Shown: piece by piece, positions 6,951-60,942 of the stretch
Layout of the letters: each line of letters opens with the position of its first letter
Numbering within the stretch: position 1 is the stretch's first letter
Translations under genes and position numbers: made by a program
Notes under the pieces: generated by a model
What the model was told of the DNA's origin: nothing
Databases searched by the model: none
Seen by the model: only the letters and a program-made list of their open reading frames with translations
NCBI RefSeq assembly: GCF_032854445.1
Contig: NC_088306.1
Span: 3,158,373-3,222,372, forward strand
Direction: 5' to 3'
DNA length: 64,000 bases
Origin: Liolophura sinensis
Lineage: Eukaryota > Mollusca > Polyplacophora > Chitonida > Chitonidae

Positions 6951-6954
6951 TCCA

Positions 6955-7125: not shown

Positions 7126-7128
7126 GGA

Positions 7129-34691: not shown

Positions 34692-37600
34692 ATGATAGGC
34701 CAGGACGCAGTTCATCAATATAGTCAATCAGTTCAAAATGAACTGTTGTGTCAAAGAAGCCAAAACTCTCTGCCACTGGACGACACTGAGGCGGAACAGC
34801 CACCTACTCTCAGGCGCCAGCGTAAACTGGAGACACCGGCTGACTTGGACACCAACAGCCCAAGGCACGTTTGCACGTGCCACGTTGAGCGTGGGCAGCA
34901 AGGTCATTGTTCCCGAGAGAGCATTGAATATCAATTGTTTCGGCAGGATTCGAGATTTGATCTAAACCCGCAACTCGGTGATCACCCCCTCCTTAGGTGC
35001 CACCCTGACCCGTCCCTAGATGGTTCACCTTCCACGGATTCGACAGACACCATCACTGGCCTTGTCCAGAAGTTGAAGGATATGTTGTTTACGAAAGATG
35101 TAAGTATACAACAGAGTGAATTTTTCCAGCGACATGGCGATTCGGCCCAGACTCAAATGTCGATTGTCCTCCAGCACTGTGTTAATAATGCGCTATCAGT
35201 TTGCTCACTGAACGTCATCACAGAGGAGGGACAGATCAACAGATTGAACAGCTAATCACATCAAAGAGAAGGCAACAAAAAATTGTCCTGCTAATTTTAA
35301 ACGTAATCTATATGAAGTTAAGACTTCCAAATGTCTACTGACATGGGTCTACCTTTGAGTGGATATTCGAATGTTCAATTTTATCCGGAGTTTCTCTACG
35401 ACCAACCACTCACTGCAGCCCCGGTATTTAGTATCATGGCCGAAGGTTGACTTTTTGACTGGGCTACCTCCCCTTAGTAGTATTAACGACGGTAAAATTC
35501 AAATATCAGACCTCAACCGCCCTTCCCAACCACAACCGGCAATTTTTCCAAACATATAAGCCTAAGGTGTGTAGTTAAGAGTCAGTGCAACCCATTTTGT
35601 ATTTACCTGAACCAACTCAAAAAATATCCATTTCCTTCGGCAATATGTCACTTTGCGAGTTTTTTTTTTCAGAATGACCTCAGATCACTTGAAAAGTGTG
35701 ACTCCGTCAGACTCGGTGTGCAGAAGTCCACTGGATATGAACCCTTCGGGTGCGACCTCCACAGCTACAAGGACCCCAACAGGAACAGGTGGTTCCATTT
35801 ACTTAAATACCCTGGCATAAACCAAGACAACACAGTGGCAAGAGAACTCGGAATCGAGTAAGTCCATAATAATAAGTCCAGTTACGGTGTTAGAAAAGAC
35901 AGCAGATGGCGTTGTTTCCGTATCCGGACTCTCGTCACTTTGACCTTCTACATGCTGGAGTTCTCTCCCTTTGTCTAGGTCACCCGCTTGGGATTCTGTA
36001 TCTTCAGCTATAAACCATCCGCCCATCCGTTCACACGATTGTTTGTTCCTCTATCCCTCCGTTCATCCATCATCTTTTCCTCTCATCTGTCTTTTCTTCC
36101 GTACCACTAGCTTTCCGTTAATCCATCTGTCTTTCCTTCCATACCACTACCTTTCCGTTCATCCATCTGTCTTTCCTTCCTTACCATTACCTTTCCATTA
36201 ATCCATCCATCTTTTCTTCCGTTCCTCTATCTCTCCTTTCATCCATCCATCTTTTGTTCTGTTTCACTATCTGTCCTTTCATCCATTCATGTTTCCTTCC
36301 GTTCCACTATCTATCCGTTCATCCATCCATCTTTCCTCTCGTTCCACTATCTATCCGTTCATCCACCCATCTTATCTTCAGCTCACCCATCTGCCCTTTA
36401 ATCCATCCATCTTTCCTTCCATTCACCCATCGGTCCTATTATTCCCCCTTCCACCCTGTTCCACATCATTCCATCCATCTACATACTCTTTTCAATTCAT
36501 TTATTCATACATCGACCCGTTCATAGCACATTTATTTATCCATCCGCCTATTTATTCAGTTCTTTATTGTATCGTTAAATTATGCTGTCAATGTGTTAAT
36601 CAGGAAAGGATTGTGTTCACAGAGAGAATGACGAAATCCTGATGATTAACAAGGAGGTTGTCACGCGGGTGAATCAGCAACAGGTGAAAATGAAGATATC
36701 TCGTACGCTGAAGAGCGGCAATGTCACGTTGGTGAGAGAATTTCGTCAGTAAAAACACATTTGTGATGTTTACCAAGAGATATGGCAAATAAAAATGTGC
36801 TTTAAGGAAAATGAGGTGAAATAATAGAAATTAAAATTATCGTAATGACATAAAAACAAGAAAAGTTACATCACATTAAACATTCAAATGTCTTAGAAAG
36901 TGCCGTTGTTCTTGTCTTCTTACGTGTCAGTCAATAATCCGTCGGTTAACTCCTAAGCTTATGTTAAATCAACGAAACATAACATCAATCATTTACCCAT
37001 CGGTTAATCAGTTTTAAACCTCGCAATCTTTTACTTAATCAGGGACTCGTCTTTTATTTTAGTTGCTTCGTCGACTTGTAGAGGGCGAAATGTTCGAATA
37101 CCTAGAGATCCAAGCTAAAGTAGAAGTCATAGGTAAGGTTTTTAGGTTTGCAGAATTCCGTTTTTTAGTCACAGGAAAGAGGAGTGAGCTTTGACCTTTA
37201 CTATCGAACTTTCAGAGGTGTAGAGATAGGCGCGCCATATTGGTGGAATGCAAGCCCTCTTAAACAAATAGCCGATGGAGAGATAACGGCCACATGAGCA
37301 TGGCAAACCGCTTATTGTGAAACATCAATATGTATCCACCTGAATTGTTTAGAAATTAAAACAGTGTTAACTTGTCCTTCGGTATTACCACCAACAACAC
37401 CACACTGCTGGGGCTATACCATAACGCCGCTACTGAAACTGAGAGCTGAGTGGTTGAAAGGGCCATAAGCGTGTAGCGCTATCAACCACTCCATGAACAC
37501 CCTTTTCCGTTGCCTAAGTACACTAATCAGCTTAGTGCGTTTATTATTCAAAGAAGCCAATGCTAACATTTTGAAAATTAATAGTACCGCTTCCATTTAC

Positions 37601-40600
37601 ATGCAGGCCTATGCAGCTTTTAAAATTTACCTTTTATTTTCGTTGTTGTTACAGAGGGGACGATCCGTGCGTCGCGGACAAGTATTGTATATTCAACCGC
37701 TAAAGGAAGCTACCTTGTGTTGCGTAAGGAAGAGGTGGAATCTAAACAGATAAACATCTTCCACAGAGACAATGTTGTTTGCTGGAGTGGAGATGAATTA
37801 GTTACTGAGGTGCGGCCACCCGAAGAATGTGAGTAGGCCTATGTAGAAATCCTTGACACCAATACACGTAAGTAGGGAACCGTAAATGAGACATTATGAA
37901 ACAAATTTTTTTGGAAAAGAAAATAACTGAGATGGTGGGAGAAATGTTTTTTGAAAAAGAAAATCTTTTCTCTGCATGTAACGATTTGTAAAGTTGGGGA
38001 CTTTGACTTAACTGGCCAATCATAAATGAAATAGCGGCACCAGCGGATAGGCTATAAACCCGTCTATGTGTGGAGAGCTACACTCCTGATCGTCATTGCC
38101 GTTATTACTATTTGATTGAAGAATCAAGAATACTCAAGAATATTTCACTTATACGACGGGAGCCAGCATTATAGTGGATGGAAACCGGACAGAGCCCGGG
38201 GGACCATCCGCAACATTTGGGCCTTTGAGCCTTTGGTCCTGACGCACGTATAGCCCGCTTTAGTTCTACTGTGGCTGGATCAAGCACATTTGTATTCGAA
38301 TAATGTCTCACATTTAACTGGTGCAGTTGACACTTACAGAAGTCAAATATTTAAGGCCGGCGCTGCATGCTGTATTCTTTATTTTCTTTTCATTTTGTAC
38401 ATATATGCCTGTTTGAAATCTGTTTATTCAAAACCTGTCTCGATAATGAGCAATGAATTACGCCTAAACAAGTCGGTCTATAGCGGTGTACTATTTTGTT
38501 CTTTTCGCACGGCATTGTTTCTGTATAGACCTAGTTATGCTCGTCAAGCAAAGACGTACAAGTACATGTAGCTCATAATCACTGTAGCGTGGCACCTGAG
38601 AATGTTAGTTCGTTTGTGTTGTACGTCGTTTTTGGAAATTGGCCTTGCCATTATTGACCTGGATCGTCTTTATTGGTTGACGGCTGGTATACGAATGTCT
38701 GTTTTGACACATAGATTTAAACATATTGGAATTGATCTGGGTAGACGATCAGGTCCATTGTAGTCCTTGTCCTTGGTTTGAAATACAAGTTATTTATCTC
38801 ATGGTAAGACCCTAGTCAAATTATGTAGCTAATAGTGAGGGACACTGGCCTATGGCTGCCATACTGGGGTTGTGATGGCAATAGCCTGTGATTTGTTGAT
38901 ACTCTTGGGGCCCTGACTTTCAAAGCTCTTTTTTTCACCATGTAATCTTTTCTCTTCTGAAAAAAAAAATGTTTTTGTCTTCCAAAAAATTGGTTTTCAC
39001 TTGTATGGCTCAACAGTAACAGAAATTCACCTAATATATAGAAAGTGAATAGAAGTCACCCTAATACAGAATTTGAATCAAAAGAAATCAGTATTAAAAT
39101 ATAAAATGTCAATGACTAGAAATCAACCAAATATAGAATGTGAATCAGTAAAAATCAGGCAAGTATAAAAAAGAGAATAAGTAGATATCAGGCAAATATA
39201 GAATGTAACGAACAGAAATCAGCAAAAATATACAATGTGAATTAATAGAAATCAGGCAAATATAAAGAAGAAATCAGCCATATATATGATATCAATCAAT
39301 AAATATCAGCTAAATATAGAATTTGAATCAATAAAAATTGACCAAATGTTGAATTTGAATTAAAAGACATCAGCCATATATAGAATGTGAATCTTGATTA
39401 AAATCAGCTGAATGTAGAATGTGAATAAATAGAAATTAGCTAAATGTAGAATGTGACTAAATAGAAATTAGCTAAATGTAGAATGTGAATAAATAGAAAT
39501 CAGCCAAACATATACAGTGTCTTTCAAGATAGATCATCCTCACATAGAACACCATGAAAATTAGTCCAGTATAAAATGGGATTCAATAAAAATCAGCCAA
39601 ATATGAAATATCAGTAAATAAGAATTTGTCTAATATAAGATGTAAATGAAAAGAAATCCGCCCATCATAAAATGCCATTTAAGAGAGACCAGCCTAACAC
39701 AGAAGACCAATGAATGAAAATAAGCAGTATGTTAGCAGATTGTTGGCCAAGAGAAATCACCCTGATACAGAAGGTCTGTCAATAAAAATCAGCCTAATAT
39801 AAATGTGAATCAACTAACACCAGCCTAATATTGAAGTCTGCCAACAGAGATCTGCACTTATATATCAAATCAGTTTAATCAATTTGTGATTAAAGAAAGT
39901 GCCTTTTCTGTGCCGTTACTCGTTACACATGATTGTGTCTCTATGCGCTTAACCCCGGCTAGGAGCTGTATATTCATCGTATTAAATTAGATCGCCACTC
40001 TGGAGATACGAACAATTGCAATTAAAGCGGAACTGAGATACATATTTTGTTAGCGACAACTGATATTCTAGCATGGTACACTATTTGAATACTGATTCAC
40101 TCAGTCGCCTAGAACATAACTTGCGTGTTTCCAACATCTTTGAAAACTGTAGACTTCTTTTGTTTGCATGATTCCGTTCTATTTCGTACTTTATATACTT
40201 TCTTAGTTCTTTGAGGGTTTGTATTATACGTCGTTTTGGGAATGGGCCTTTGTGATTATTGACCTGTAGCGTCCGTATTGGTTGACAGCTGGTATACGAA
40301 TGTCTCTTTCAACAGGTGGATTAATACTACACAATTTTACGGAGAAATCCTCCACAAAATCAGTAACAAAATAAATAAATAAATGACATATAGTTTAGTT
40401 TTATAAATTTTGTTACAAAAACTTAAAAGCTGCATGATATGTTTTTTAGATACCTTTGAGCGGTTTATAGTGGAAGCATATCACTTGAGCACTGGCCATA
40501 TTCACTTTTTCTATGTTTTGAAATGTGGAGACAGATACGCGGAATCTGGGGAAAACGGTGTAAAGCTGAAGGTGAGAATTTTCTGTTTATTCATTTATTT

Positions 40601-41503
40601 ATGTGACTGAAACAAAGTTCCAAAAGTTTCACTTTCATTTTAACATTTGTTTTATGGTGAGTGAGTATAACTTTTCCATTTCCTGTAATGACGAAATTTG
40701 TACTTTGTACACATTGTCTAATTAAAGTGTGGCTACTTGTGATGGACACAATTCTCCACGAGACCATTAGATCACTATACGCGTATTGTTTCTTCAGTTA
40801 TTAAGGTTGAGACGCGCTTTCTGTTTGAGACCATGCCGGTTTCCGTACATGCGCCTTTTAACATTTTTATCATTTTCTTGTTTTCAGCCTGCCGGAAGTG
40901 GATGGTCTCCGAGAAATGTGGACTCTCGCTTCTTTCGAGTTCATGTAATAGAAACTGGTTCCCCCAGAAAGATTGTACTGGAATGTGCAGAAAAACAAAG
41001 TGAATGACTTGGGTTTATTGTTATTTTTTATTGTAACAACCTATCAGGATTTTGTCTGTCATCCTGAGGCCACAGACCGGTGGTTTTCTCTGGCTCTCTG
41101 ATTTTTTGTCCTTGGTCGCCCTCCTATATGTGAAGCATTCCAGGGTTAAACATCAGGGTATTTGCTGACGTCGTGTTTATCAAAAAAATGTTCGTAAAAG
41201 ACTTCGGCCATTCTTTTTTCTTAATTAGATGGCAATAATAGACAAGTCGTTTCTTCTTCCGTATGCTTAATTGTTTAAACGTCATTTCGGTCTTACTTTC
41301 ACAAGAACCGGTTATTGTCCACTTTATTCCACGATATTATACCATTTTTGGCCTTTCACATTTGCTTATGAATTTTGTTTGTTTTACTTACAGATTATTA
41401 TCTTGCCTGCAAAAACGGAAGGGTAGAATTTATACAGGCCAATCACCCCGCTGACGCGCGTGACTTCACCGTATTGAAAGAGGTTGAAAGAGGTTCACTT
41501 TAA
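34692..41503 (+). CDS. gene A: PDZ domain plus interleukin-1-like beta-trefoil protein, 429 aa
   Basis: Eight coding exons: 34,692-35,099, 35,673-35,857, 36,623-36,731, 37,063-37,132, 37,655-37,828, 40,450-40,571, 40,888-40,999 and 41,394-41,503 (TAA at 41,501). All use GT/AG and stay in frame (1,287 nt). The start is the first ATG of exon 2 (exon begins 34,680); the leader exon has none. Residues 1-136: serine/proline-rich, no signal peptide or membrane segment. Residues about 154-241: PDZ-like, with binding-loop motif GYEPFGCDL and ENDEILMIN, then VTLLLRRL. Residues about 258-429: predicted beta-strand-rich trefoil with FFYVLKCGDRYAESG, SRFFRVH, IVLECA and YYLACKNGRVEFI, then DFTVLKE. The last stretch resembles the C-terminal strands of IL-18/IL-1. 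FGF-type trefoil signatures are absent. A secreted leaderless cytokine or an intracellular adaptor are both possible. The gene structure is strongly supported; the family call is inference. Confidence 0.85.
35990..36560. repeat. pyrimidine-rich (ccatccatctttccttccgtt)n tract in gene A intron 3
   Basis: Imperfect units of about 40 bp made of catccatc and ctttccttccgttccacta, ending 60 bp before exon 4. A shorter relative is at 56,330-56,565 in gene B. The proline/serine-like open frames are artefacts. Confidence 0.85.
38128..38215 (-). mobile_element. SINE family 1 fragment in gene A intron 6
   Basis: Reads actcaagaatatttcactta, tacgacgggagccagcatta, gaaaccggacagagcccggg. No counterpart is seen in gene B intron 6. 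Confidence 0.75.
38608..38722. repeat. dispersed repeat R400, right-end fragment
   Basis: Reads gtacgtcgtttttggaaatt, ggccttgccattattgacct and ggctggtatacgaatgtctg, matching the right end of R400. Confidence 0.7.
39015..39890. repeat. degenerate about 30-bp repeat (aatagaaatcagccaaatat..)n in gene A intron 6
   Basis: Imperfect units of aatagaaatcagccaaatat and agaatgtgaat over 880 bp. A shorter form lies at 58,020-58,390 in gene B intron 6, so the array predates the duplication and changed length afterwards. Confidence 0.8.
39931..40312. repeat. dispersed repeat R400, near-full copy in gene A intron 6
   Basis: Same order of landmarks as copy 1 at 13,581 (gattgtgtct, gagctgtatattcatcg, cgacaactgatattctagca, tccgttctatttcgtacttt, gctggtatacgaatgtct). 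Absent from gene B. Confidence 0.75.
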
Positions 41504-42197
41504 TCGTGTCGTTGCGTGGGAATGTCATTCAGTTTGGTATTAAGCGAATCAGAATGCATAGTTTTCAACTTCGATGGTATTATCACCGTCAGCAGGGCAA
41601 GGGAGACAACCGTTTGATCCACTTACTGGTGCTACTTTATAGAGGAAGTGACCAAAGTGACTGTTAGACTTTCACGCTTTTTGAGACTGTGCATTTACAT
41701 AAATTTGTTGTGTTCTTTATTGTTTTGTTTTGTTTTTAGGGGTGGGTCACTCTTCCTATGAGTACATGTATAGTTTTACACTTTTTGGCATCGAATTCTT
41801 TTCGATAAACGTTTATGAGGAATGTGTCAAACTTCTTGGGAATATATGCTTGCTTTTCTTCGGACTGTGTTCCGGATGAAGGATGGTGTGCCCCCTAAGT
41901 GGTAGAACAAGCAGGACGTACTTTTTGCATAGCTTCGGTGATTCCCTTATTCCAATGCCAACAATTATCCCGAGGACATCACCCAGGAACACGTTTTATT
42001 ACGACTGAAGCGGTACTTACAGGCGTATTTCAGTCAGGAGGACATTACCCAGAAACACGTTTTATTATGACTGAAGCGGTACTTACAGGCGTATTTCCCA
42101 CCCAGAAGTGTTTATTCTTGACTTGGGCATTTCGTCCAGTTGTTGCCCTTTATAGTCATATGGATCACATATAAAAGACTCCAACATGGAGAATAAA
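41504..42197 (+). other. gene A 3' flank / possible 3' UTR with AATAAA
   Basis: No coding feature. A pair of about 55-bp direct repeats (gaggacatyacccagraacac and acgactgaagcggtacttac) occurs at 41,970-42,095. The first AATAAA after the stop is at 42,192-42,197, inside the left end of an R270 copy; gene B has the same at 60,926-60,931. It is a candidate poly(A) signal only. Confidence 0.4.
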
Positions 42198-42208
42198 ACT
42201 AGAGCACC

Positions 42209-42364
42209 GACCACAGTTCGATAGTGGCCAAATGGTCATGCACATGCGACCACAGTTCGATAGTGGCCAAATGGTCATGCACATGCGACCACAGTTCGAT
42301 AGTGGCCAAATGGTCATGCACATGCGACCACAGTTTGATAGTGACCAAATGGTCATGCACATGT
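42209..42364. repeat. 39-bp minisatellite, 4 copies, inside an R270 copy
   Basis: Unit gaccacagttcgatagtggc followed by caaatggtcatgcacatgc. The left flank (aaaactagagcaccgacc) and right flank (ggccacttgtctatttttct .. catgtaaatg) are R270 sequence (element about 42,190-42,435), so the array is an internal amplification of R270. Gene B has nine copies at 60,943. Confidence 0.85.
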
Positions 42365-42510
42365 TACAGTAACAGAAATACGGCCACTTGTCTATTTTTC
42401 TTATTTAGGGTATTGCCTTAACTGTGCATGTAAATGATCTTCGGCAATTATCTGCCCTTCGGTCAAGCATTTGTCACTTTGTCCATTTAAATAACGAATC
42501 TTCTTTTCAG

Positions 42511-42608
42511 CTTTAGAAGGTACTCACTATAGAAACCAAAGCAATGTTTTTATTATGAATTACTATTTATTCTGTGCTAATATATTGCCTTGGCTTACCT
42601 GTACATGA
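42511..42608 (+). other. possible alternative last exon of gene A
   Basis: After acceptor ttcttttcag (ending 42,510) a frame compatible with exon 8 (phase 1) encodes LEGTHYRNQSNVFIMNYYLF and about ten more residues before TGA at 42,606-42,608. The same acceptor and frame are kept at 61,437 in gene B. The peptide is hydrophobic and unlike the normal trefoil end. It could equally be plain 3' flank. Confidence 0.25.
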
Positions 42609-43063
42609 GCATTTTCTTATTTTTATACACATATTTGGAGCAGCTAACGTTCTGTTTGCTTTTTTTGTAATTGTTGTGACTTTGTTACATTTTTTGTCGA
42701 TGTTTTTAATGATGGAGATACTTAATAGTTTGCATCTTAGAAAAAGTATTTACAAATAATATCTGTAAATACTTTTGTCGTTCGTTAAGATAATTGCTCA
42801 TGAGTTAATAATATATTCAAGACCAGGGTCCTCATTGAACCTGGAAGTGTAACATGTCACATACTCAGACGAGAAAACAAACAATGGCTTCAGAAAAAAA
42901 AGGACGCGCATGCCAGATTACAAATGTTATTTTCGCAACAGAATAAAAATCTTGCTTTTTACACAACATCTAGTTGGTTGCGTACGAGGTACAAGTGCTA
43001 AAACAGTCGTACATCGGAAAATGGGATGGGTGTATTTTAAATGCTGGGATGGTGAGGTTGAGC
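42609..43063. other. downstream flank shared with the right end of the window
   Basis: Bases 42,825-43,060 align with 63,762-63,960 (cctggaagtgtaayatgtca, ctttttacacaacatcta, gtgtattttaa), marking the right part of the duplicated segment. No gene seen. Confidence 0.65.
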
Positions 43064-43320
43064 TCCGTGGCCTAGCGGTTAGCGCCTGAGCGCAGACCAG
43101 TGCCACAGGCGCCTTCATCAATGCGGTCGTTGTGAGTTCAAGCCCAGCTTATGCTTCCTCTCGGTCACAAGTGGGAAATCTGGCAGCAACCCGCGGATGA
43201 TCGTGGGTTTTTCCGTGACAGAAAGCCCGATTTTCTCCTTCCATAATAATGATCGCCGTAGTAAAAGTGAAATGTCCTTGAGCATGGCGTAAAATTCCCA
43301 AGTTAGGGCAAATCCCTATT
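43064..43320 (+). mobile_element. SINE family 1-related copy with a diverged tRNA head
   Basis: In plus orientation: A-box-like TGGCCTAGCGG, B box GAGTTCAAGCC, gcaacccgcggatgatcgtg, ataatgatcgccgtagtaaa and agcatggcgtaaaattccca. A diverged match to its head is visible at the extreme right of the window (63,965-64,000), so the insertion may predate the duplication. Confidence 0.8.
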
Positions 43321-43859
43321 TTTGGCGATTATCCTGCCCGCACTGGTTGGGGACGTTGCTGACACACGAGATGCGGGTTCAAAGCCCCAACCGACTGGGA
43401 CCAGCTCAGTATGACCAACGCCGTGTCTTGTACTGGTCACTTTCACTATAGTGTATTTCTTTTACCGGGTCGCCTATATTCAGCTCTCTACAAAATCAGT
43501 CATACTCGCTACCAAAATTGCCTTCAGTCAGTTTACAGACAGCTGAATGTAGGAAACTATCTAAAAGACGATAAATACATAGATGCCAGTTGTTAGATCA
43601 AAGGGTTGTCAGCCTTTGGCCCATGCACCCGCATGCATTCTACTGTCAAAGATGTTTCCTTGAAGAAAGGGGTCTCATCAGTAGGGCGTTTATACGTGGA
43701 GACTCACGAGCCTTCTTTATATAACCGACATATTAAGCTCAGCCTTCAATATGCTACAAAGCTCTATAAATGCTAAAAAGCTCATGCTACAAATCTTGCC
43801 TAAGACTGTCTTTTCTATCCATCATATGTAGATAAAATTAACAAATGTTCTAACAAGAT
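43321..43859. other. probable upstream part of a decayed retrotransposon
   Basis: Open stretches such as QNCLQSVYRQLNVGNYLK near 43,510 look retrotransposon-like but are too broken to assign. A tRNA-like ggttcaaagcccc lies near 43,376. Confidence 0.35.
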
Positions 43860-44480
43860 CCTTCCGTTTCGTCTTCGTATACGGGACCATATTGTGGAGG
43901 CTTACATCAAGTTACTGATTCGAAAGTCAAAAGATTCGGCGAGGGTTGCGGGTGCTGCTGTTAAAACAGAGAGTCTCTTCTCTTCGTCTTCCTTCCTCAT
44001 CTTCAATCTTCTCAGCCCGAAGCCAGAGCTATACTCCTGGCCTTATCATATGTTTCTTCTGGGCGTGCCCAGAAGGCAATGATATGCAGTGACTCGCCCT
44101 CCTGTCTTTTGGCAATACAGCATAATAAGTTTAAAAATCCTTTTATACTTGAAATATTAACCTTACACAGAAAACTAAAAAATAAATGTTTTCGTCGCCT
44201 TTGGCAGGGTGAATGGGACCTTCAGGTCCATAATAAATTGCACAGTGTTCACCCTGTGATTGGCTTTAGTTTGTATACTCAGGGTATGTCTGGTAGAGAT
44301 CAAGTAGTTTAACGAAGGGTATTGAGCATTCTCTTCTAACTCACATTTTTGTTCTTGATGGGGGTTCTGCCCCAGAGTGTACTGGATGTGGTGCTCTATA
44401 CGTCATCATACATATCCTAGTTGATTGTGTAGACTTTGCCCATGTTCGGCAAAGATTCTACACACTCATATCCTATATCA
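43860..44480 (+). mobile_element. non-LTR retrotransposon (LINE) remnant: RNase H and terminal Cys/His motif
   Basis: Fragments in several frames add up to the end of a LINE ORF2. PELYSWPYHMFLLGVPRRQ is followed, after a frame break near 44,080, by CSDSPSCLLAI, which is the RNase H strand with its Asp-Ser. Further on, EHSLLTHIF and then ECTGCGALYVIIHILVDC give the CxxC..HxxxxC motif found after RNase H in I/Jockey-type elements. Stops at 44,080 and about 44,311 and frame changes show it is dead. The clade cannot be fixed by eye. Confidence 0.75.
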
Positions 44481-44689
44481 TAAAATATAAATTTTAATTG
44501 TCATAAATTCTTATCAATAAAAAGTTATATACACATAGATTTCATGATATACTATTTTCAAAGTATGCTGGTTTTCGAGTTTTAACTGTTTTACTTTTTT
44601 ATTATCTGATTTAAACATGTCCGAACATTTTTGTTTCCTTTTTGATGTTCTCACTACCATATCGAAAACCTCAATCGCCTCGTTCGAAA

Positions 44690-44785
44690 ATCTCTTTCAC
44701 CTTGTTCTTGTCACGATATGGCTGAAATATTGCCGATGTGATGTTAAGCCAAAATCATTCATTCACTCATTCAACAAAGGCGTAT
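44690..44785 (+). mobile_element. probable 3' tail of the LINE remnant
   Basis: Reads cacgatatggctgaaatatt, gccgatgtgatgttaagcca and then (attc/cattca)n. It has the same layout as the tails of SINE families 1 and 2 (tgaaatattcttgagtacgg; tgaaaaattgttaagtacga; then an (a)cgttaaac-type motif and a short simple repeat). Confidence 0.6.
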
Positions 44786-45967
44786 TAAATCCAAGTGTTC
44801 GTTAAAGTGAAAATAAAGTCTGCCACTGTATATATAAACAAAGACGAAAGAAGCTAAGCCACAAGTATCGCTGACAAATAATTTTTAAGTCATTGGAGGT
44901 ATGAAAGCTGTGAAGAGGGAAATCAGCATTGAGGATTTGGCACTGATGGAAAATTATCTTCCACTAGCCATGCTGTAGAAGCCCTCATGGGCCAGTAACT
45001 GGCCTTGAAAGCATCATGTACGTAATTACTGGCTTCGACGTCAAAACTTTATCAGTTCTTGATTGTTATTGTGGCTTCTTATGGTGGAGAGATATGTGCA
45101 GTACATAGAGATGATGTATCAACATCGAGTTGTCTGAGGTCGGGCTGTGGCATCAGCCGAGCCGGAAGAGGTCTTTGTCATATACCTTTTTATTCAACGA
45201 AATCAACGAGAATGATCTGGGCAAACTTGCAAGTTCAACTATGACGCCGAAGTGCCTGATGACGTCACTCTTAAAACCGCAAACAAACATAGTTCGTAAT
45301 AAATATTAAATTACGCAACGGAAAGTGAACACAGATATTAAAACTAATTGAAACTTATTAAAAAATAACCCAAAATTTTCTTCTTGATGATGTTAATGAC
45401 AAATAACCATAGTTTTCAACGATATCACCACGTTTTCACCACGAGGGTTACGTCAAAATATCACTACTGTGTGATTCACAGCAACAGCACAAACAAGTCA
45501 TATGTCAAAATGGAACATAAACGGAACATAAGTTGAATAAAAAAAATTACTGCAGTTTTCTACAACGCTGAATTTCTGCGTGGAATGAACTCGCAGGATC
45601 ACCCGTGAAATTTTATTGCTCGTACGTTAGTGAGCGTTGTACATCTCAAACTAGTTCAGGAGGATGCAGGCAAGGTATGAGAGTCCAAAATAGTCCGAGA
45701 AAGATTGCTGACGCCATCATTAGATGCAAAACCTTGTATCTGATGGCTCGTATCGGATACCGTACACAGATAGGTATGTGATATAATCGGATTTTTGTGG
45801 TTATTTTAAAAGAAAAGAGAACAATAAAATTTAGCCAAATATCAGAAGAAAGATCGTGAAAAGTTATTTACGGCCTTTAACATTTGTTTAATGAAAGGAT
45901 ATTTAAAAATATTGTGGTATGGTGGGTATCTGGAACCATTTCTTGATGGTATGTATTGTCGTGGCAG
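44786..45967. other. no recognised gene
   Basis: A 25-codon frame at about 44,899-44,977 (starts MKAVKREISIEDLALMENYL) reads like protein but has no supported splice partner. Otherwise unique AT-rich DNA. Confidence 0.35.
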
Positions 45968-46062
45968 TATAATGTATTGTTTTATTTACTTATTTAATTG
46001 ATATTTCACGCCGTACTCAAGAATATTTCACTGATACGATGGCGGCCAGCCACTATAATGTA
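45968..46062 (-). mobile_element. SINE family 1, truncated copy with short target-site duplication
   Basis: The tail and core (atatttcacgccgtactcaa, gaatatttcactgatacgat, ggcggccagc) lie between 9-bp repeats tataatgta (45,968-45,976 and 46,054-46,062). Confidence 0.8.
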
Positions 46063-46362
46063 AATTTATTTCAATGTAAGTTTGCACAGTAAAAATGGCC
46101 GACAAATGGTACCGAGGTATAGCCTACATGTAGGTATTGTGGACTTCGTTTACCGGAATCAGCCGAAAGCGATGTAACTGCCATCACTACACACAGCGAC
46201 ACCTGTGCATGCGCGGACGCTTAAGTATGTCTCGGGCAAATTTTCACACTTGCGTGTAGTTTACAGCTTACCTGTGAACATACCTGTTAATTACTAAGAT
46301 AAGAACTGTCTTGCGATCTCCAGCAGGTGACTCTGCGCTGACGGGAGTCTGACAGCTCAGTC

Positions 46363-48290: not shown

Positions 48291-48299
48291 GAATATTCT

Positions 48300-48487: not shown

Positions 48488-49103
48488 ATGAGGCACACAC
48501 CCACAGCTGGTGGCGAGTCTCTCGGTTAAGGGGAGATAATCGTTACACGGATATTAAGCAGGCTTGTCAGCTTATGTTTAAAAGAACATTGTGATTGGCT
48601 TGTTAATTAGGGGATAAGTCTCCTAGCTCGGGATAAAGTACTTTGCACCGACTTAGTGAACCAACAGGCATGCTGCATTCTAAATAATGCCAATTCTGAA
48701 TTGATCTGTAACACGAGCAAAGTATTGTGAAATATATTTTTTTCAGTTTTAAGTTTTCTTTTCTTGGCCATTGAAAAAACAGATTTATAGAACTATGTCC
48801 ACGGTTCCGTACTTTACTTTCTAGGGTTCACTCGTTTTATAAACTCACATTGGATGATATTTTGTGCACTAACAGCGTCTATAACATGCCATTTGTCAAT
48901 GTCGCATATTGAGGCAATGCGCATGTACCTCGTTAATATTCATTAGTCCTAAGTATAAATGGTGACATATTCCTAGAATCGATAAGGAGACGTCCGTGTT
49001 TGTCCTCTCAAGATGGCAGCCGCGAAATTGGGCGCAATACCTAAGTACAGAGTCAAAGCGCTACTGCACTGTCGTTCCTTTCAACGTCGGAAAGGTGCCT
49101 GTT

Positions 49104-50000: not shown

Positions 50001-50044
50001 GTATGTACTAAGGCTAGCAGATTTACCACAAAGAGAAAGGTTTC

Positions 50045-50215
50045 CTAGTTTAGTGCCCAAAACGGATGGTCCTGAGAAAACCACACACCACGGGCAAGTA
50101 AATGAAGAACTATTTACCTTGACAAAACACCTTTAAATGTTTAAAATTCCAGTATGTTTAAAACATACGTGGATGCTCAAGTCAAAACAAACTTTCAATT
50201 AACCAGATGTACATC
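50045..50215. repeat. dispersed repeat, copy 2 of a pair
   Basis: Matching order: gatggtcctgagaaaaccac, cacgggcaagtaaatgaaga, ctatttaccttgacaa and aaactttcaattaaccagat. A C-rich run follows at 50,230-50,247. Confidence 0.55.
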
Positions 50216-50764
50216 ATGCCAATACATGCCCCCCACCCCCCCACCCCCAATGACCGGGCGCACGAGGCCCGGGATAAAACCCGGCTGTGGACAGGGTATT
50301 TGCAGATTCCCGACTCTCTCAGACAATCACTCTGCACAGTCTCACGTTTACTGAAACAGCGCGTGACTCCCGCCAATTTGATGTGCCTATCTGTACGTCA
50401 CATGCACGTGGGAAAGCTGTTCACTATCTTGCACAAAGTCGGTTGTTTTCCACCGCGCTTGAAAAAAGGAAAAACCTTATAAGTAAGTATGTCATTTTCC
50501 CTGCAGGAAGTACTGTTAGTGAAGAATTCCTTTGACATGTTTGACGTTAACTAGCAATCAAGAAAATACAAAATTAAATCGGTTAACATATGTCACCACA
50601 ACAGTTTTTCCTCAGCACACAAGCACGGTAATTTTGTGGACAAGAATAAAAATATACTGGCGAAATTTTGAAAGTATATTCAACTGTGCGAACATAAGCA
50701 GTAATAGTAGCCATATATACGTTGTTATTTTTCACACCGGGAAGTCAGAGATACGTGTCATTAG
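50216..50764. other. no recognised gene
   Basis: A possible acceptor at about 50,500 (cattttccctgcag) is followed only by a few codons or a stop in every phase I can connect. Confidence 0.4.
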
Positions 50765-51030
50765 TTGAACTTGTCATATACTCCACAACGTCTCTCGTCA
50801 TAGGCCAATGAACTTCCGGCTGTTCTTCGACCGACAAAACTAGGACGATGCATTGAGTTTGGGGAGATGTCACGTGACTCGGTTAGCTTGTCACTTTACC
50901 ATATATGGTCATGTCTTCCGGTCGTCTCTCCAGTCCCGGAACAATCGTTTTCTAGGCTGAAATACCCAGATTTATATACATATATATATTTATATATATA
51001 AGCGAGAGACGAGCGGCCCACACACTCCAT
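50765..51030 (+). promoter_or_regulatory. gene B promoter with GTCACGTGAC palindrome and TATA box
   Basis: Aligns with the gene A promoter. The palindrome GTCACGTGAC is at 50,869-50,878 and the TATA box TATATAAG at 50,995-51,002. Upstream, cttccgg (an ETS-type core) occurs here where gene A has cttcctg. Confidence 0.75.
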
Positions 51031-51111
51031 ATCGGTTTGTTCTCTCGAAACAGATACTACAATACGAACGTCTCATTGTGACAGACCATTGACACCATCG
51101 CAGTAATCCAG
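51031..51111 (+). other. gene B non-coding exon 1 (5' UTR)
   Basis: The last 80 bases equal those of gene A, ending cagtaatccag before donor gtaagaagg. No ATG. Confidence 0.75.
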
Positions 51112-51904
51112 GTAAGAAGGTATGACTTTAACGTGATCATGTCACGCGTGACTGGGTGATGTTCACTCAGTGAAAGTAATGCTGAACAATTCAGAATATA
51201 CTGCTGTTAACCTTTGTTACTGTAATTCAACTTTCTCGTAAATTCACAGGATCTTTATGAAAGCATATTCTGAGGGCACTTTTCTGTTTATGTTGATCAG
51301 ATCATGCTTTTTGTGAAGACCTGAAATTGGCCAATCCAACCAATATTGTTTAATTTCAAAAAATAAATTATACAAATGCATAAATCGCCCTGAGAGTTAC
51401 TCTTTCATATAGTCAGCAATTCTTTGATAAAATGCGCGTCTATCTAAAACGAATTTAAGCTTACTGTTGGTAAGAAAACCTCTTTTAGTGATTTTTGATA
51501 AGTGTAGTGGAAGTCAAGACTCAGTGTTACTTAATACATGCTCGTGAAACCGAGTAGACCAGGTCAACACAGGATTTGTAACATGTTTGTTACAAGAGTA
51601 ACAATAACGACCGTAACAGTGTATACTTAGGCACTCCTATCGCTTAGTTGTACGTGACATCCCTAGCAGTTTTGTGCCTTTATTACTGGTAATGGTTCAC
51701 AAAGGGAATGCACATGCACGCTTCTATAGATATATCCAGGATGTGGCAATTAATATTTTAATTTGCACTGTTCATATTTTGCTCTAAATATAGACATACA
51801 ATTTGAAGGTGTGGCGCTCTGGTGTAGTGAGTAAACGTGTAGAACAGAAAGATGCCGAAAGTAGTCGAATCGTTTTCAATTGTAGCACTACTAACCATGT
51901 ATAA

Positions 51905-52225
51905 AATAGAAGGGCTAGAGGATAGAAAGTAAAGCCAAAGTAACAACGACAGTATGATAAGTGGCAAATGATATCACGTAACTGGTGAAATACCGCCACT
52001 TGTCAATTGACCTCAGTTAAGGTCATACTCTGTTCACATTAGTGCCTGAAAAAAAGCAACGTAAACACCCCCCCCCCCCCCCGCTTCCCACCATCCCCGC
52101 TCTAGCCCCTTGGAGAGTTATTTTAAAAAAAAAAATACAAAAAAAAAATGCAGTGATATTTATAATTGCAATAAATTAGACGTCACTGGTCGAGAATTAC
52201 TCAGTGTCGTCACATTTAATAAACA
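51905..52225 (+). repeat. dispersed repeat R270, copy in gene B intron 1
   Basis: Carries gtaaagccaaagtaacaacg, acttgtcaattgacctcagt, tgcagtgatatttataattg and attagacgtcactggtcgag. It is interrupted by the poly-C run at about 52,068-52,082. Confidence 0.75.
52068..52082. repeat. poly-C run
   Basis: About 14 C in a row inside R270. Confidence 0.9.
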
Positions 52226-52286
52226 ATCACATGAAGAGCTCTACTGTTCTGTGAGTTCTACACAGCACGGGACATCAACTTTCGTT

Positions 52287-52375
52287 CTGGCCTGTACGAG
52301 TGAGTGAGTGAGTGCTTAGCGCTTTGACGTCGTACTTAATTATTCAGTCATATCGGGGACGATCTGACCTGTACG
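52287..52375 (-). mobile_element. SINE family 2, truncated insertion specific to gene B
   Basis: The tail gagtgagtgagtgagtgctt, then tgacgtcgtacttaattatt and cagtcatatcg, sits between 12-bp repeats ctggcctgtacg (52,287-52,298) and ctgacctgtacg (52,364-52,375). Gene A has a single uninterrupted ctgtacgcactgccagc at this place (about 32,698), so the insertion came after the duplication. Confidence 0.85.
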
Positions 52376-52929
52376 CAATGCCAGCTTCACGCTTGTCTGT
52401 AGTGACCCGCCGTCTGCATCCCTATTGCATATCAGTGCTTCACTGGCGAGAGAACTTTACTCGTTGAGTCAGAAGAATTATGTTCAGTGTATATGGTACA
52501 GACAGTGTAATATAGTTTATGCAGTGTTAGGGCTAAAGTGGTGCAATGGTTGGATTTTTTTATGTATTTACTTCCTTATATACAGCGCCCAACAGGGGGA
52601 AAATGACATACTTACTGATAGGGTTTTTTCCTTTTTTACAACCATGTGATATGGTATGTTATCACGAGGCGCAAACAGCCATATAGCCAGCGGGAAATAC
52701 CGGGACAACCACGTGGCGTATTGTCAAATCGTAGGCGTTCATATTCGCGTATACTCTCTGGGGCAACTGAGTACCTCTCAGTCGCATACATACAGGGAGT
52801 GGCTGGGGAAGAAAGATGTGCATAGCGTGTAATGCCGGGTATTAGGCCTAACAACGGCGTTATCAAGTAGATGGAGACAGTACAAGACAAATTGGATGGT
52901 TCCATAGATTCGGTACTCTCACTTTTTTA

Positions 52930-53080
52930 TCTCTGCATTTATCTCTCTATTTATTTATTTATTGATTTTTTTAATTATTTGATTCCTGTTTAACGCCATG
53001 CTCAAGAATATTCACTTATATAATGTGACTTAGATAATGGTTTACCTGGAGTAAACCACGGACCTTAGACAGGAATTTAA
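52930..53080 (-). mobile_element. old SINE family 1 copy, counterpart of 34,170-34,345
   Basis: Same diverged bases (tttgattcctgtttaacgcc, atgctcaagaatattcactt, gagtaaaccacggaccttag). Confidence 0.75.
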
Positions 53081-53827
53081 CAATTAAACTCGTTGATCTA
53101 CAACAGCATCGAAGCAGCTACATCTGGATTCTGTTACATGACCCTATTGGTCAAGGATCTAACAGTCGAAACGAGTCACACCTGATCCTCGGTAGGCCTG
53201 CTGTGTTAGTGCCACTATTTGGCTGGTGTTTAACTCTGTACTCCGCACCTTTTCACCTACTCTCCTCTGTATTCCGGACCTTTTCAACTACTCTGAAAAA
53301 GTGAATCAGTTAATTTTACCAGAAAGCCTGTTGTCTGAGTGATACCAGAATGCATTGTGTTATAATAACACAGTATTCTGACATATTTAATATAATATCT
53401 TGTTAGTTTAATACAATTATTATGTTGAATTAATAGAATATCTGTGTTGCATTTAAAAGAATAATCTGCTGCAATGACGGAATATACTCTCACATCACTC
53501 AGACAACAGACTTTGACAGATGTATCATTTGGTTTGATTCACGGAATGCCCGGGGTAAAACCACCGCCATTTGTCATGTACCTGTCCCGAGTTAGGACCG
53601 CAGTGGTTGCAAAAATACAACAGAAATGCAAATAAGTTGAACAGTTTCTTTATCAGCAAGGGAGGGATTCTCCGCAGGGTAAGAAATGGATTTTGGAGCT
53701 TGCCTGGTAATTTGCCGTAAACAGGAAATGATGTGACTCGTACCCAATCTTATTTTATTACCACCTGCAGGGAGATGTCAGTTAAATGAAAGTCACCATG
53801 CCACTGTGTTTTGAACATTTCACAAGA

Positions 53828-54125
53828 GTGAGTTTGTGTTTGGGTTTAACGGCGTACTTAACAATTTTTCAATCATATCACAACGAAGGATTCATTAGTG
53901 TGTAGGTAATGTGCCTCCTTGTTGCAGGACGGATTTCCACCGCTCTTTTATCTAGAGCTGTTCACTGAGGCGATTTACCAAAGGCAAGTAAGCGGCCTAT
54001 ACTAATACCGATCAACCAGTCGCTGCACTATCCCCTTAATGCTGAAGTTACAACTTCCTCTTTTTTAAGGTCTTACGCGTGATCTCCACCGAAGCGGACG
54101 CTCTACCAACTGTACTATTGGGGCC
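53828..54125 (-). mobile_element. SINE family 2 copy in gene B intron 1
   Basis: Carries gagtttgtgtttgggtttaa, cggcgtacttaacaattttt, gcctccttgttgcaggacgg, tttaccaaaggcaagtaagc and a tRNA-like end. Not seen in gene A. Confidence 0.8.
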
Positions 54126-54784
54126 GGTACTATTTACACACGAGATTTTTACGCATACTGAACAGGCCTTTATCAGACCTATGATTAATTTTCCCGTATC
54201 AATCCCATACATAGGTGAAGATCTTTCGTACATGTGTAGAAATACATTGTAACCATGAAAACGTATTTTTATTTGCACCTATATATAAAAGAATTCCACA
54301 TACGTATGTAAAAATATTTTTTCGCACGGTTTAGTAATTGAGACGTAATTGGAGCATTTTAATCCAATTACCGTTCACACAACACAGTTAAATCGGCTCA
54401 AGACCTGAAACTGGCTTCAAGCCACCCCGCTAGCATTGGCAAGTAAACCGGATTAACTGCCACCGCTTTTCCTTCACACGAGCGACATCAAACTGGCCAC
54501 TTTCGGATTTAAACCAGTTTAACTTTGCCCGTATGACCGGGATAATTCGATGATGAAAACTCATTGTGCTGGACACATGTATAGCTGTCACTGCTTTGGT
54601 ACAGGAGATATGCTTTTGGTATTTGGTATATTGCGTAGGTGTGAACATGTTCGTGTATTATGGCATATTTTTAACCCATTTATTTATTTACTTATATTAT
54701 TATTGGACAGATAAAGAGTGACCCGTGATCAATCCATTAATTTAATAAGACCTAAAATATTCAAACTTTCAGAACTCAGCAGCC

Positions 54785-57700
54785 ATGATAGGGATCCAGC
54801 GTCCAACGCCTTACGACATGAACAAAGTGGAGGCGCCGGATCACCGACTCAGCCTAAACATGGCCGCAGTGCACAGGCGTCAGAGAATGTTGAGGAGGAT
54901 AAGCAGCTGTCCTGAAGAAATGCAGTGTCAAAGGAAAATGGATTTCCAGACCTGCGCCAGCACATTCCTGCACAACCATTACGTAGTTCAACGATTTAAA
55001 AGTAAATCACTCCAAAATGCACTGCTGTATCACAGCGCCCTGTCCAGGGAGCAAAGCTCTCTGCCACGTGACCACGCGGAAACGGAGCAGCCAGCAACTC
55101 TCATGCGCCAACCTATACTGGAGACAACGACTGACTTTGACGACACCGACGGCTCAGTGCACGTTCGCAGGCGCCGCGTTGAGCGTCAGATAGGTTGTTG
55201 TCCCCGAAAGAGCATTGAATGGCGATTGTTTCGGCAGGATTCGGGGTTTGATTTAAACCCGGATCTCGACGGTCACCCCCTCCTCAGGTGCCGCTCCGAC
55301 CCGTCCCTAGATTGTTCCCCTTCCGCGGAACCGATAGACTGCATTACCATTGGCCTTGTCCAGAAGTTGAAGGCCATGTTTTTTGGAAAGGACGTAAGTA
55401 TCTTATAGCGTGAATTTTCCCAGCGCAATGGCGATTCGGGTCCAGGCTCAACTGACCAAAGCAAAAAAAGTATACCGCTGTTTTAAACGTCATATACATT
55501 ATTCATTTATTTATTTATTTGATTGGGGTTTTACGCCATACTCAAGAATATTTCACTTATATACACACTGATATCAAAGATGGCTATCAAAACAACTTCG
55601 TCCGGGAGAGTCCGAATTGGAGGCGCTAAGCTGGTCCGCGTTCCCAGTATGTCCATCGATGACGTCATTTCCGAATATCCCCAACCAGTGATGGGAAATA
55701 TGCATAAAATAATGAAGTTCTTAAGAAATCTAAAATATGATATTCAAACCTGTTAAAGATATGTATAGCCATCGTATATAACCTACACTCAGCGTAGGTG
55801 ATAACTCTGATGAGAAGGTTCTACAATATCAAAGATTTAGATCCGACATTTAAATGTCCATTTGTCTTGCAAACTTCAGACATTTACATTGGGCCAGTTG
55901 AACATTTTATCTATACTCATCTATGTTAAGTAAACTGCGTTTTGTCTTTCAGGATGACCTCAGATCACTTGAAAAGTGTAACCCCATCAGATTGCATATG
56001 CAGAACTTCACCGGTTATGAACCCTTCGGGTGCGACCTCCACAGTTATCATCATCCCGACAAAAACAGATGGTTCCACTTCCTTAGATACAATGTCATCA
56101 ACCCAGACGACACAGCGGCAAGGCAACTCGGAATTGAGTAAGTCCTTGATAGTAGTCAAAGCAAACAACGATTGAAAATGTTATGCAAGTCCGAAGGCGG
56201 TATTAGACAAGATAGCAGATAGCGCTGTTGTCGGATATGGACAGCCATCACTTGGACCGTCTAGATGCTGGAGTTGTCTCCTTTCCTTCAGGCCATCTGC
56301 ACAGGCTTCTGTAACGTTACCAATAAACCATCCGCCCATACGTTTGTACGTTCCTCCATTCACCCCTTCCTCTGTTCATCCACCAACACTATATGTATGT
56401 CCATCCTTCATTCCTTCCGTTCAACTATCTGCTTGTCTATCCATCCATCTTTCTGTTCAACGGCCCACAATTTCATCGTCCCACTTTTAAATTCCTTTCA
56501 TTGCAAACTTATTTATCCATCCGTTTTCTTAGTCAGTCTTCCATCCGATTGTCTGATAACCTATCGTTATACGATGCGTTAATCAGGAAAGAATTGTGTT
56601 CACAGAGAGAATGACGAAATCCTGATGATTAACAACGAGGCTGTCACGCGGGTGAACCAACGACAGGTGGAAATGAAGATATCTCGTACGCTGAACAGCG
56701 GCAATGTCACGTTGGTAGGAGAATTTCGTCATTAAAAACACAATTGTGACTCATACCAATAAAAATAACAAATAGAAATCCTTGTGATTATTTATAAGGA
56801 CCATGGAATGGATTGGAACAACTAATATTGTCCACGTAACTGAAAAAACAAGAAACGTTATTTCATTTTAACTACAATATCCAGCTGTTCTTGTCTCTTT
56901 ACAGGTAACTTTCAATCTGTCCGGCAGTAACTCGTCTGTCAACCAATGACGTTGTTTTAAATTAACGAAACACAACATCCCTCATGTATCCACTAATTAA
57001 TGAACCAATCAGCTTTTAAAATTTACAATGTTTTACTTCATCACTGAATCCTTGTCTTTTACTTTAGTTACTTCGTCGACTTGTACAGGATGACAAGTTC
57101 GAATACCTAGAGATCCAAGCTGAAGTAGAAGTTACAGGTAAAGTACGGTTAGGTTTCGGAGAATGCTCATTTATTTATTCAGTTTTTGACTTATGTGATG
57201 GTGGTCAATATTTTGAGGCCAAGAAAGAAACCGAAGTCACCTTTGGCAAGTTACTAACGGACTTTCAGACGTGCACAGATGTGCACCCCATAGAGGAGGG
57301 ACGCAATCCTTCTTATAGACTATTGAAAATGAACATGGTCAGCCGCTTGTTGTCACACTTAAATAAGAATTCACCTGTGTATAGCTTTGGAAGTTTGAAT
57401 GTGTTAACTGTTCCTACCGTATTACCACCCAAAACAACATGTAGGGTTATAGCTTAAACGCGCTTCGGAACGGATGCAAGTGCCATAAACGCCTAGCGCT
57501 TCCTACCACTAAACACATTTATCGTTGCCCAAGTACACTAATCAATTCAGTACGTTTATTATTTGAAGAACGAAATGTGAATACTTTGTAATTTTAGCGT
57601 TATCGCTTCCATCTGCATGTATAGATCTTTTTAATGTTACCTTGTATTTTGATTGTTGTTGTTGCAGAGGAGTTGATCCGTGTGTCTCGGACACGAAGTA

Positions 57701-60276
57701 TTGTATATGCCCAAGCCAGAGGGCGCTACATTGTTTTGCCTGACCAAACCGTGCAATGTAAACGGGTAAACATCTTCCACAGAGATGATGTTGTTTGCTG
57801 CAGTGGGGAAAGATTAGTTACTGAGGCGCGGCCACACGGAGAACGTGAGTATATAGAAATCCTTAATTCCAACACAGAAATGTCAGTGAGTCTAACGTTA
57901 AGCATAACGTGGAACAAAATATATCTCCCTAACCGAGTATGTGGAAGAAACGACATCAATGAAACACTACTTGTCATTCAATGTACCGTGTAGTTCGATA
58001 CAAAGCATTGCAATTTAGCGGGCAAGATCAGCCTAATATGTACACAATGTCAGACCAAAAAAATCAGTTTGACACAATCGATGTTAACTTTGAATCGATA
58101 TAAATCAACCTTATATAGAATATGAAAAAAAATCGGCTTAGTATAGACTGTCAGCCAATAGAAATCAGCCTAATATAGACTGTCAGCCGATAGAAATCAG
58201 CCTAATATAGACTGTCAGCCAATAGAAATCAGTCTAATATCGAATGTCAGCAAATAGAAGTCACTTTAATATAGAATGTGAATTGACACGTATCGGCTTA
58301 ATATACGTCAGCCCACAGGAGTCAGCCTAATGTACAGTATCAACAAATAGAAATTAGTACAAGAGAAATCAGCCATTTGTAATGATGCCAGAAATCACCT
58401 TTCCTGTGCCGATGCACATAAATATCCTAGTGACATTAATACAACACAATATTACGGGACACTAAAATGTAACAGTCTTCCACATAATCAGTGACAACGT
58501 AAGTAAATAAATGACATATATTCCAGTTTTATACATATTGCTATAAAACTTTGAAAGCTACCTTGAAACGGTTTTCAGGCACTTTTGAGCGGTTTACCGT
58601 GAGTGCATGGGACACGATAGAAAACAAGGTTGCCTTCTTCTATGTTTTGAAATGTGGAGACAAATACGCGGAAGCTGGAAACAACTGTGTAATATTGAAG
58701 GTAAGAACTTTTTTTTTTATTTATTTATGTATTTTAATTTATACTTCGTGTCCTTTGGTCTCGTCGTCTGCACCACGGCTCGCGCTTTTTATGCCACCGA
58801 AAGAACGTTCACTTTTCATTTTCATGGTTGTTTTATTTTAATGATTATGCCTCAGCAGTTTCCTGACCGCTTCCGTGGCCTATTGGTTACAGCGTTGCCC
58901 TTGAAGTCGGGGGAACCGGGATCAAAGCAAATTCGGTCATAGCAAAGACCTTAAAAATGCTTCGTGTTGCTACCTCGCTTGGCGCTCAACACTGAGAGGT
59001 TAGAGCACGGAAACATGACTGGTCGACCCGCTGTCAGTATAATGTGACTGGGTGTGGTATAAGGTGTCGTATTTCCGGCCCGATACTTCAGTGGCGGCAG
59101 CACTTTGGTGACATGGACTCACCCTGCCACAAGAAGATACAGTATATGTACACACATCTAATGACTCCTCGTCGTCATATCACTGATGAATTGTTAAGTA
59201 CGACGTTAAACCCCAGGTATTCATTCATTCGTTCATTCGTAAGGACGAATTTGTGATCGACATTATTCTCCTTCAGACCATTAAATCAACGTATGTGTGT
59301 TGTTTCGTCGGTTATTAAGATGTAGACACGATTTTCTGTTTGTAACCATGCCGGTTGCTGTATACATTTTGATCATTTTCTTGCTCACAGCCTGCAGGAA
59401 ATGGCTGGACTCCTGAGCGTCGCCTTCCAAAACAATTCAACTCTCGCTTCTTTCGAGTTCATTCAACAGGAATTGGTCCCTCAAGAAAGATTTTCTTGGA
59501 ATGTGCAGACACAGACCGACAAAGTAAATGATTTGGGTTTTGTATTATTGTAAGAATATCTCTCTGGTCGTTCTATGGAAAGGATTTTGTCTGCCACACG
59601 CATGTAAATGTTCGTGAGGAATTTGTCACAGACCGGTGGTTTTCTTCCGACTTCCCGGTTCCCTCTCGTCGTATATGTGAAGCATTCCTCAGAACAGCGC
59701 TAAACACCATGAAGGCCAAAAAAATAAATCATATCTAACAGTACGACGGCTTATCAGTGTCTTTGTGTAAGTTGTATATGTGTCGTTTTATAAAAAAAAA
59801 TATTCGGAAAAGAATTCTTAAAAGATTTCGGCCAGTCTTTTTTTTAATTAGATGATAATATTAGAAATGTAATTTCATGTGTTTAATTGTTCGACTGTGA
59901 TTTAGTTTTTGCTTAAATATAGTTCGGTGATCTAAGGACAATGTTTACATATTACCGGAACTGTCGACCTATTCAAAGTGCTGCATCACTAAAACATTAT
60001 TTTGGTCATCTGACGACGATGCCATCTTATTAGCGGACCGGTTGACATTTTCAAAGTGCTGCATGCCAGTTCTGAAGTGCATATGGAGTGGTTCTTGTCC
60101 ACTTAGTGCCACTAACTCATATTATTTTGGGTATTTTACGTATTTAATGAATTTTATTTGTTTGACTTACAGATTATTATGTTGCCTGCAAAAATGGAAA
60201 AGTGGAATTGATACAAACCGAGAACCCCATGACAATTCGTCAGTGGACAGCGTTGAAAGAAGAGACTGTCCGTTAA
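54785..60276 (+). CDS. gene B: PDZ domain plus interleukin-1-like beta-trefoil protein, 502 aa
   Basis: Eight coding exons: 54,785-55,393, 55,953-56,137, 56,606-56,714, 57,068-57,137, 57,668-57,844, 58,579-58,700, 59,391-59,523 and 60,173-60,276 (TAA at 60,274). Intron phases equal those of gene A and the frame holds for 1,506 nt. Exon 2 is 201 nt longer than in gene A: residues about 10-80 are extra or lost in A. No signal peptide. PDZ-like domain at residues about 220-308 (GYEPFGCDL, AARQLGIE, ENDEILMINNEAV, SGNVTLLLRRL). C-terminal trefoil-like part at residues 325-502 with VNIFHRDDVVC, FFYVLKCGDKYAEAG, SRFFRVH, IFLECA and YYVACKNGKVELI. Identity to gene A by eye: exon 3 about 68%, exon 4 about 86%, exon 7 about 59%. 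Exon 8 has 7 extra residues. The IL-1/IL-18 assignment rests on the last two exons; exons 6-7 are only compatible with it. Confidence 0.85.
55505..55570 (-). mobile_element. SINE family 1, short 3' fragment in gene B intron 2
   Basis: The tail and core ttgattggggttttacgcca, tactcaagaatatttcactt. No counterpart is seen in gene A intron 2. Confidence 0.8.
56330..56565. repeat. pyrimidine-rich tract in gene B intron 3
   Basis: A shorter relative of the catccatctttccttcc tract of gene A, in the same position before exon 4. Confidence 0.7.
58020..58390. repeat. degenerate about 30-bp repeat in gene B intron 6
   Basis: Units of aatagaaatcagcctaatat and agactgtcagcc, matching the gene A intron 6 array but shorter and with a different dominant variant. 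Confidence 0.8.
58867..59240 (+). mobile_element. SINE family 2, full-length insertion in gene B intron 7
   Basis: In plus orientation: a tRNA-like head (ccgcttccgtggcctattgg), cttggcgctcaacactgaga, cagtataatgtgactgggtg, atacttcagtggcggcagca, cctcgtcgtcatatcactga, attgttaagtacgacgttaa and an (attc)n tail. Gene B intron 7 is 690 bp against 316 bp in gene A, a difference of about one element, so it is post-duplication. Confidence 0.88.
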
Positions 60277-60931: not shown

Positions 60932-60942
60932 ACTACAGCACC

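Follow-up and report, generated by a model that had tools for sequence, protein, structure and literature searches.

The question raised by this locus is whether a mollusc carries genes of the interleukin-1 (IL-1) superfamily. Two neighboring genes, here called gene A and gene B, were found in a 64,000-nucleotide (nt) stretch (hereafter the window) of contig NC_088306.1, positions 3,158,373 to 3,222,372, from a chiton that was first published as Liolophura japonica and whose name was later corrected to L. sinensis (PMC12441733). Each gene encodes a PDZ-like middle region followed by a C-terminal region that is read as a beta-trefoil. With a probability of roughly 0.68, the pair represents tandem mollusc homologues of the IL-1 superfamily, with a layout nearest to that of the fish ligand nIL-1F. 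This family-level conclusion was drawn because three separate lines of evidence agree, namely profile comparison, intron phases, and the partnership with a PDZ domain.

Gene models were obtained by three-frame reading and scripted splicing. Gene A spans 34692-41503 and encodes 429 amino acids (aa), gene B spans 54785-60276 and encodes 502 aa, and both lie on the forward strand with eight coding exons each. AG was present at 14 of 14 internal acceptors and GT at 14 of 14 donors, and the intron phases (0,II,0,I,I,0,I) are identical in the two genes. Seven of the eight exons each paired with the counterpart exon of the other gene in a self-tblastn search made with those seven, and exon 8 was paired by reading and by a search of the chiton genome (609,464,459 bases in 632 contigs) with protein B (E 0.025). 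Based upon the sequence and the A/B comparison, the predicted splicing holds and both genes are real. Exons were assigned by exon reading and splicing throughout, supplemented for exon 3 by Pfam (and in A by hhalign) and for exons 6 to 8 of gene A by hhalign. An earlier reading of the window (the original prediction) had proposed two leaderless, invertebrate genes of eight coding exons with equal phases; its coordinates and lengths were reproduced, the PDZ and C-terminal motifs that it quoted are present, and the host is indeed an invertebrate.

Coding exon 1 encodes a charged, leaderless N-terminal region of 136 aa in gene A (34692-35099) and an N-terminal region of 203 aa in gene B (54785-55393). 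No hydrophobic N-terminal stretch was detected in the first 60 aa using a crude test, the highest 11-residue Kyte-Doolittle mean being -0.24 for A and 0.19 for B, which agrees with the absence of a leader in the original prediction. Immediately 5' of the gene A start codon, CTTTCAG followed by AACTCAGCACAG was read on the forward strand (34673-34691). It may be the acceptor for a first exon without coding sequence, and a near-identical motif also occurs 5' of gene B.

The putative PDZ domain is spread over three exons in each gene. Its first half is encoded by exon 2 (35673-35857 in A, 55953-56137 in B), which in A includes the EPFG motif that we take to be the carboxylate-binding loop; the second half is encoded by exon 3 (36623-36731 in A, with ENDEILMIN, and 56606-56714 in B), and the last strand and a linker by exon 4 (37063-37132 and 57068-57137). 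Pfam PF00595 scored 20.7 bits for B (E 5.6e-4) and 15.5 bits for A, both under the curated cut-off of 23.2. The PDZ region of A and B was then aligned using hhalign to a profile of PSD-95 PDZ3 and seven chiton PDZ domains drawn from 70 genome matches, giving P = 1e-5 over 38 columns confined to the second half of the domain, and none of 300 column permutations was as good. A PDB search with the same region returned PDZ proteins only at E 0.5-1.2, below short chance matches to zinc fingers. Though the Pfam scores are sub-threshold, the PDZ assignment was upheld by profile-profile comparison, on which the middle region of A and B is a divergent yet genuine PDZ domain.

The C-terminal region is encoded by the last four exons. 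In gene A, its first part lies in exon 5 (37655-37828, phase 1 to 1), followed by exon 6 (40450-40571, phase 1 to 0, FIVEAY...FFYVLKCGD), exon 7 (40888-40999, phase 0 to 1, SRFFRVH...IVLECA), and exon 8 (41394-41503, YYLACKNGRVE...DFTVLK and the stop codon). The gene B equivalents are exon 5 (57668-57844), exon 6 (58579-58700, phase 1 to 0, FFYVLKCGD), exon 7 (59391-59523, SRFFRVH...IFLECA), and exon 8 (60173-60276, YYVACKNGKVE and the stop codon). A profile of both trefoil regions was used as the hhalign query, significance was determined with 500, 300, or 100 column permutations, and most reference sequences, including those of the IL-1 superfamily, were entered by hand. Nine human superfamily sequences gave P = 0.0031 over 117 columns (1 of 500 permutations as good), and the addition of four mouse sequences gave P = 0.0012 over 122 columns (0 of 300), with the superfamily-wide alignment collinear across these 117-122 columns. 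The best match was to IL-18 and IL-33 combined (P = 1.7e-4, 44 columns, 0 of 300 permutations). Reversed-sequence controls yielded P values of 0.64 for the nine human sequences, 0.3 for all 13, and 0.15 for IL-18 with IL-33. The block LECAEKQNYYLAC of A is equal in length to FESSSYEGYFLAC of IL-18 and FECKTDPGVFIGV of IL-33, and that of B is two residues longer. IL-18 and IL-33 are likewise leaderless; to our knowledge, they have no PDZ domain, unlike A and B.

The intron phases provide the second line. For IL-1beta, coding intron phases of II,0,I,I,0 are given in the available part of PMC4880838, with the twelve strands located in the last three exons. The chiton series, 0,[II,0,I,I,0],I, includes this published run, and chance agreement over five introns would be ~1/243 when phases are taken as random thirds. 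Chiton exons 5 and 6 measure 174/177 and 122 nt; human IL1B exons 5 and 6 measure 171 and 131 nt, sizes that reproduce the published phases. Counted from the last shared intron, the F of the RF strand comes 14 residues later in IL-1beta, as against 15 in A and 20 in B, and IL-1beta has a propeptide where the chiton proteins have the PDZ domain.

The third line is the partnership itself. According to the accessible portion of PMC7144542, fish nIL-1F combines an IL-1 domain with a PDZ domain in one ligand, as do A and B, and is encoded by seven coding exons rather than eight; the lumpfish protein is 352 aa long versus 429/502 aa in the chiton. The same excerpt lists nIL-1F or nIL-1Fm from lumpfish (MN689249), teleosts, coelacanth, and elephant shark. 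Because nIL-1F had already been described with this pairing, the original prediction of a new architecture had to be given up, and what is new here is the animal, a mollusc. Invertebrates are stated to be without IL-1 in excerpts of PMC9020223, PMC9382457, and PMC11508797, while IL-1-like activities in invertebrates have long been described (PMC9020223, same excerpt) and lamprey has IL-1 family members (PMC13337447, as far as its text was available). Among the matches listed from the open-licence literature, none described an IL-1 or nIL-1F gene from an invertebrate, and reports elsewhere are possible.

A number of results weigh against kinship with IL-1, and these are considered here together with the two alternatives that draw upon them. 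The first alternative is that the C-terminal region belongs to the wider FGF/IL-1 group of beta-trefoils, of which the FGF family is one, without being an IL-1 relative; A and B would then be intracellular PDZ-trefoil adaptors or an old side branch, not cytokines. An absent leader and a PDZ domain are compatible with such an adaptor. Two chiton FGF genes (L023 and L024, on C6 and C8) have middle exons (104 and 107 nt, by eye) that likewise run from phase 1 to 0, so the phases of exon 6 do not discriminate, and, given that I,0 is common to FGF, only the upstream II,0,I (~1/27) points to IL-1 in particular. The I,0 phases inside the trefoil speak for the IL-1/FGF group in general, and common descent may account for these introns in both IL-1 and FGF. 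Trefoil-internal phases alone were rejected as proof of IL-1 descent, since chiton FGF has the same phases. A profile of the IL-1beta cluster alone did not match the chiton pair (P = 0.37), and in the same test that cluster scored closer to IL-33 (0.031) and FGF (0.0088). On these values, the distance of the chiton pair could no longer be likened to the one separating IL-33 from IL-1beta. The comparison also took in two other trefoil families only, FGF and trypsin inhibitor.

Neither of those families attracted the chiton trefoil, however. The FGF profile gave P = 0.75, poorer than most permutations (283 of 300 equally good), and soybean trypsin inhibitor gave P = 0.22 (31 of 100 equally good). 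The Pfam FGF model (PF00167) had no match in A, B, or the whole window, yet it detected FGF exons elsewhere in the chiton genome (eight matches, five over cut-off). We know of no FGF with a PDZ domain. For IL-1beta, the published phases include the upstream II,0,I (PMC4880838, available part), and the PDZ and IL-1 pairing is likewise on record (PMC7144542, available part). A trefoil of the wider group that is not an IL-1 relative is the strongest competitor, and an unlikely one.

The second alternative, an unrelated or lineage-specific fold whose likeness to IL-18 and IL-33 arose by chance in short beta-rich motifs, takes up the remaining unfavorable results. At thresholds up to E 10, Pfam IL1 (PF00340) matched neither the full A and B proteins nor their trefoils, and querying the PDB with the trefoil profile gave no match either. 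The profile similarity is modest, in that single IL-1 subfamilies matched weakly, as did IL-18 and IL-33 one by one, and single-pair scores were mostly at the random level. With 12 target profiles tested, the best P value is inflated. Human IL-18 and IL-33, for their part, weakly match the bacterial anti-sigma factor RsgI5 in a PDB search (E 0.034 and 0.0021), and human IL-33 matches Pfam AbfB (E 0.0077); these matches are perhaps a resemblance at the level of the trefoil. A chance likeness is nevertheless quite improbable, as no permutation out of 300 equaled either of the two best IL-1 profiles, the superfamily alignment is collinear, and two independent lines, the intron phases and the partnership with PDZ, point the same way.

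Failure of PF00340 was rejected as grounds for excluding IL-1. It is not decisive because human IL-33, an accepted superfamily member with its own model, also lacks a match; the model was silent across the chiton genome and equally so in 14 control genomes. The PROSITE IL-1 signature, in its form with P, fails in A and B, and it fails too in 7 of 13 hand-entered superfamily sequences (human IL-18, IL-33, IL-36gamma, IL-37, and IL-38; mouse IL-18 and IL-33). When applied in the form given by PMC7144542, the pattern matched 0 of 21 sequences, the references again being hand-entered. A search for trefoil relatives gave 77 pattern matches among viral contigs and 116 among prokaryote genomes, and none of these was confirmed. 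The IL-1/IL-18-type trefoil originally proposed was supported, though not proved, by combined profiles with permutation controls and by intron phases; curated IL-1 models did not recover it, and single subfamilies remained weak.

Constraint was measured by comparing A with B. The same residue is encoded at 273 of 426 aligned codons, and nonsynonymous over synonymous divergence (dN/dS, NG86) was 0.236/0.340 overall, 0.133/0.266 for the PDZ exons (ratio 0.50), and 0.315/0.369 for the trefoil exons (ratio 0.85), so that constraint is stronger on the PDZ exons. Neutral evolution was simulated at half the observed dS in 2000 runs per gene. On average, 7-8 stops were gained per gene, and an open frame survived in 0 of 2000 runs of either gene, which excludes chance as the cause of the open frames. 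The reading frames of A and B are preserved by selection. That both are decaying pseudogenes with a function no longer legible, as the high trefoil dN/dS might hint, is very improbable in view of these simulations, 16 of 16 open exons with intact splice sites, and the fast change that is common among immune ligands. Such rapid change in the trefoil is what an immune ligand would show, but weak constraint could produce it as well.

The chances that A and B function as cytokines are about even, and a working can be proposed for them. The precursor would be leaderless, consisting of the charged N-terminal region, the PDZ domain, and the C-terminal region read as a beta-trefoil. It would reside in the cytoplasm, where the PDZ domain may tether it to a partner until damage or a protease liberates the trefoil. 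The trefoil would be the active part, acting as an agonist or an antagonist once free, and could exit the cell via a non-classical route, bind an Ig-type receptor, and signal via a TIR domain. At least 103 TIR domain matches were found in the chiton genome (loci L029-L040 among them). Many sit in frames of 800-900 aa, and their abundance is probably a large expansion of Toll-like receptors. Six TIR frames from 12 loci were scanned, frames being cut at locus ends, and Ig was detected in none of the six; LRR was present at E 0.01 or better in four, over cut-off in one. Ig_6 (PF18452), presumably linked to IL-1 receptors, had four matches in the genome, all sub-threshold. Neither the frame scan nor the Ig_6 search yielded a receptor.

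Were the likeness due to descent, a cytokine family supposed to be confined to vertebrates would be much older, with an origin before the protostome-deuterostome split. A more tentative reading, with the odds somewhat against it, is that a PDZ-IL-1 gene in the protostome-deuterostome ancestor was the root form of the superfamily, kept in nIL-1F and the chiton pair, and that the IL-1beta propeptide exons (II,0) are a remnant of PDZ exons. If so, IL-1, IL-18, and IL-33 would have a single origin, contrary to the published denial of shared ancestry between IL-18/IL-33 and IL-1beta (PMC5861070). A mollusc PDZ-IL-1 gene would make that question testable and would offer a candidate for the missing ligand, and the pair gives a handle on the role of the odd PDZ domain in fish nIL-1F.

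A and B are tandem duplicates in the same orientation. The similar blocks, interrupted by gaps, start at ~33.9 kb and ~52.6 kb and reach at least 42.8 kb and 62.1 kb, respectively, and a whole-genome search with protein B returned 16 matches (the eight B exons and the eight A exons) with no further copy. An element of ~650 bases, 77% identical between copies, lies 5' of both genes (33892-34533 and 52632-53263). The gap from it to the next similar stretch is ~0.1 kb at A and 1.4 kb at B, and this difference in spacing implies an insertion or loss beside it. At the 3' side, 42105-42636 and 60839-61562 are 93-97% identical, as compared to ~68-83% over most of the remaining block, and contain a 39-base tandem repeat in four and nine copies, respectively; the high identity suggests recent gene conversion or spread.

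Elsewhere in the window, nine other open frames compared to Pfam gave two sub-threshold matches, HROB and FAM216B, and nothing else. The weak HROB likeness (PF15072, 18.9 bits, E 0.0015, cut-off 30.8) is in a 149-aa open frame on the reverse strand at 13055-13501. Tandem arrays occupy 9065-11377 (41-base unit, ~57 copies) and 17119-18552 (14-base unit, ~103 copies). Closely similar peptides (TQEYFTY...) are encoded in open frames at 2662-2952, 6946-7242, 20972-21271, and 55456-55629, which suggests a dispersed repeat.

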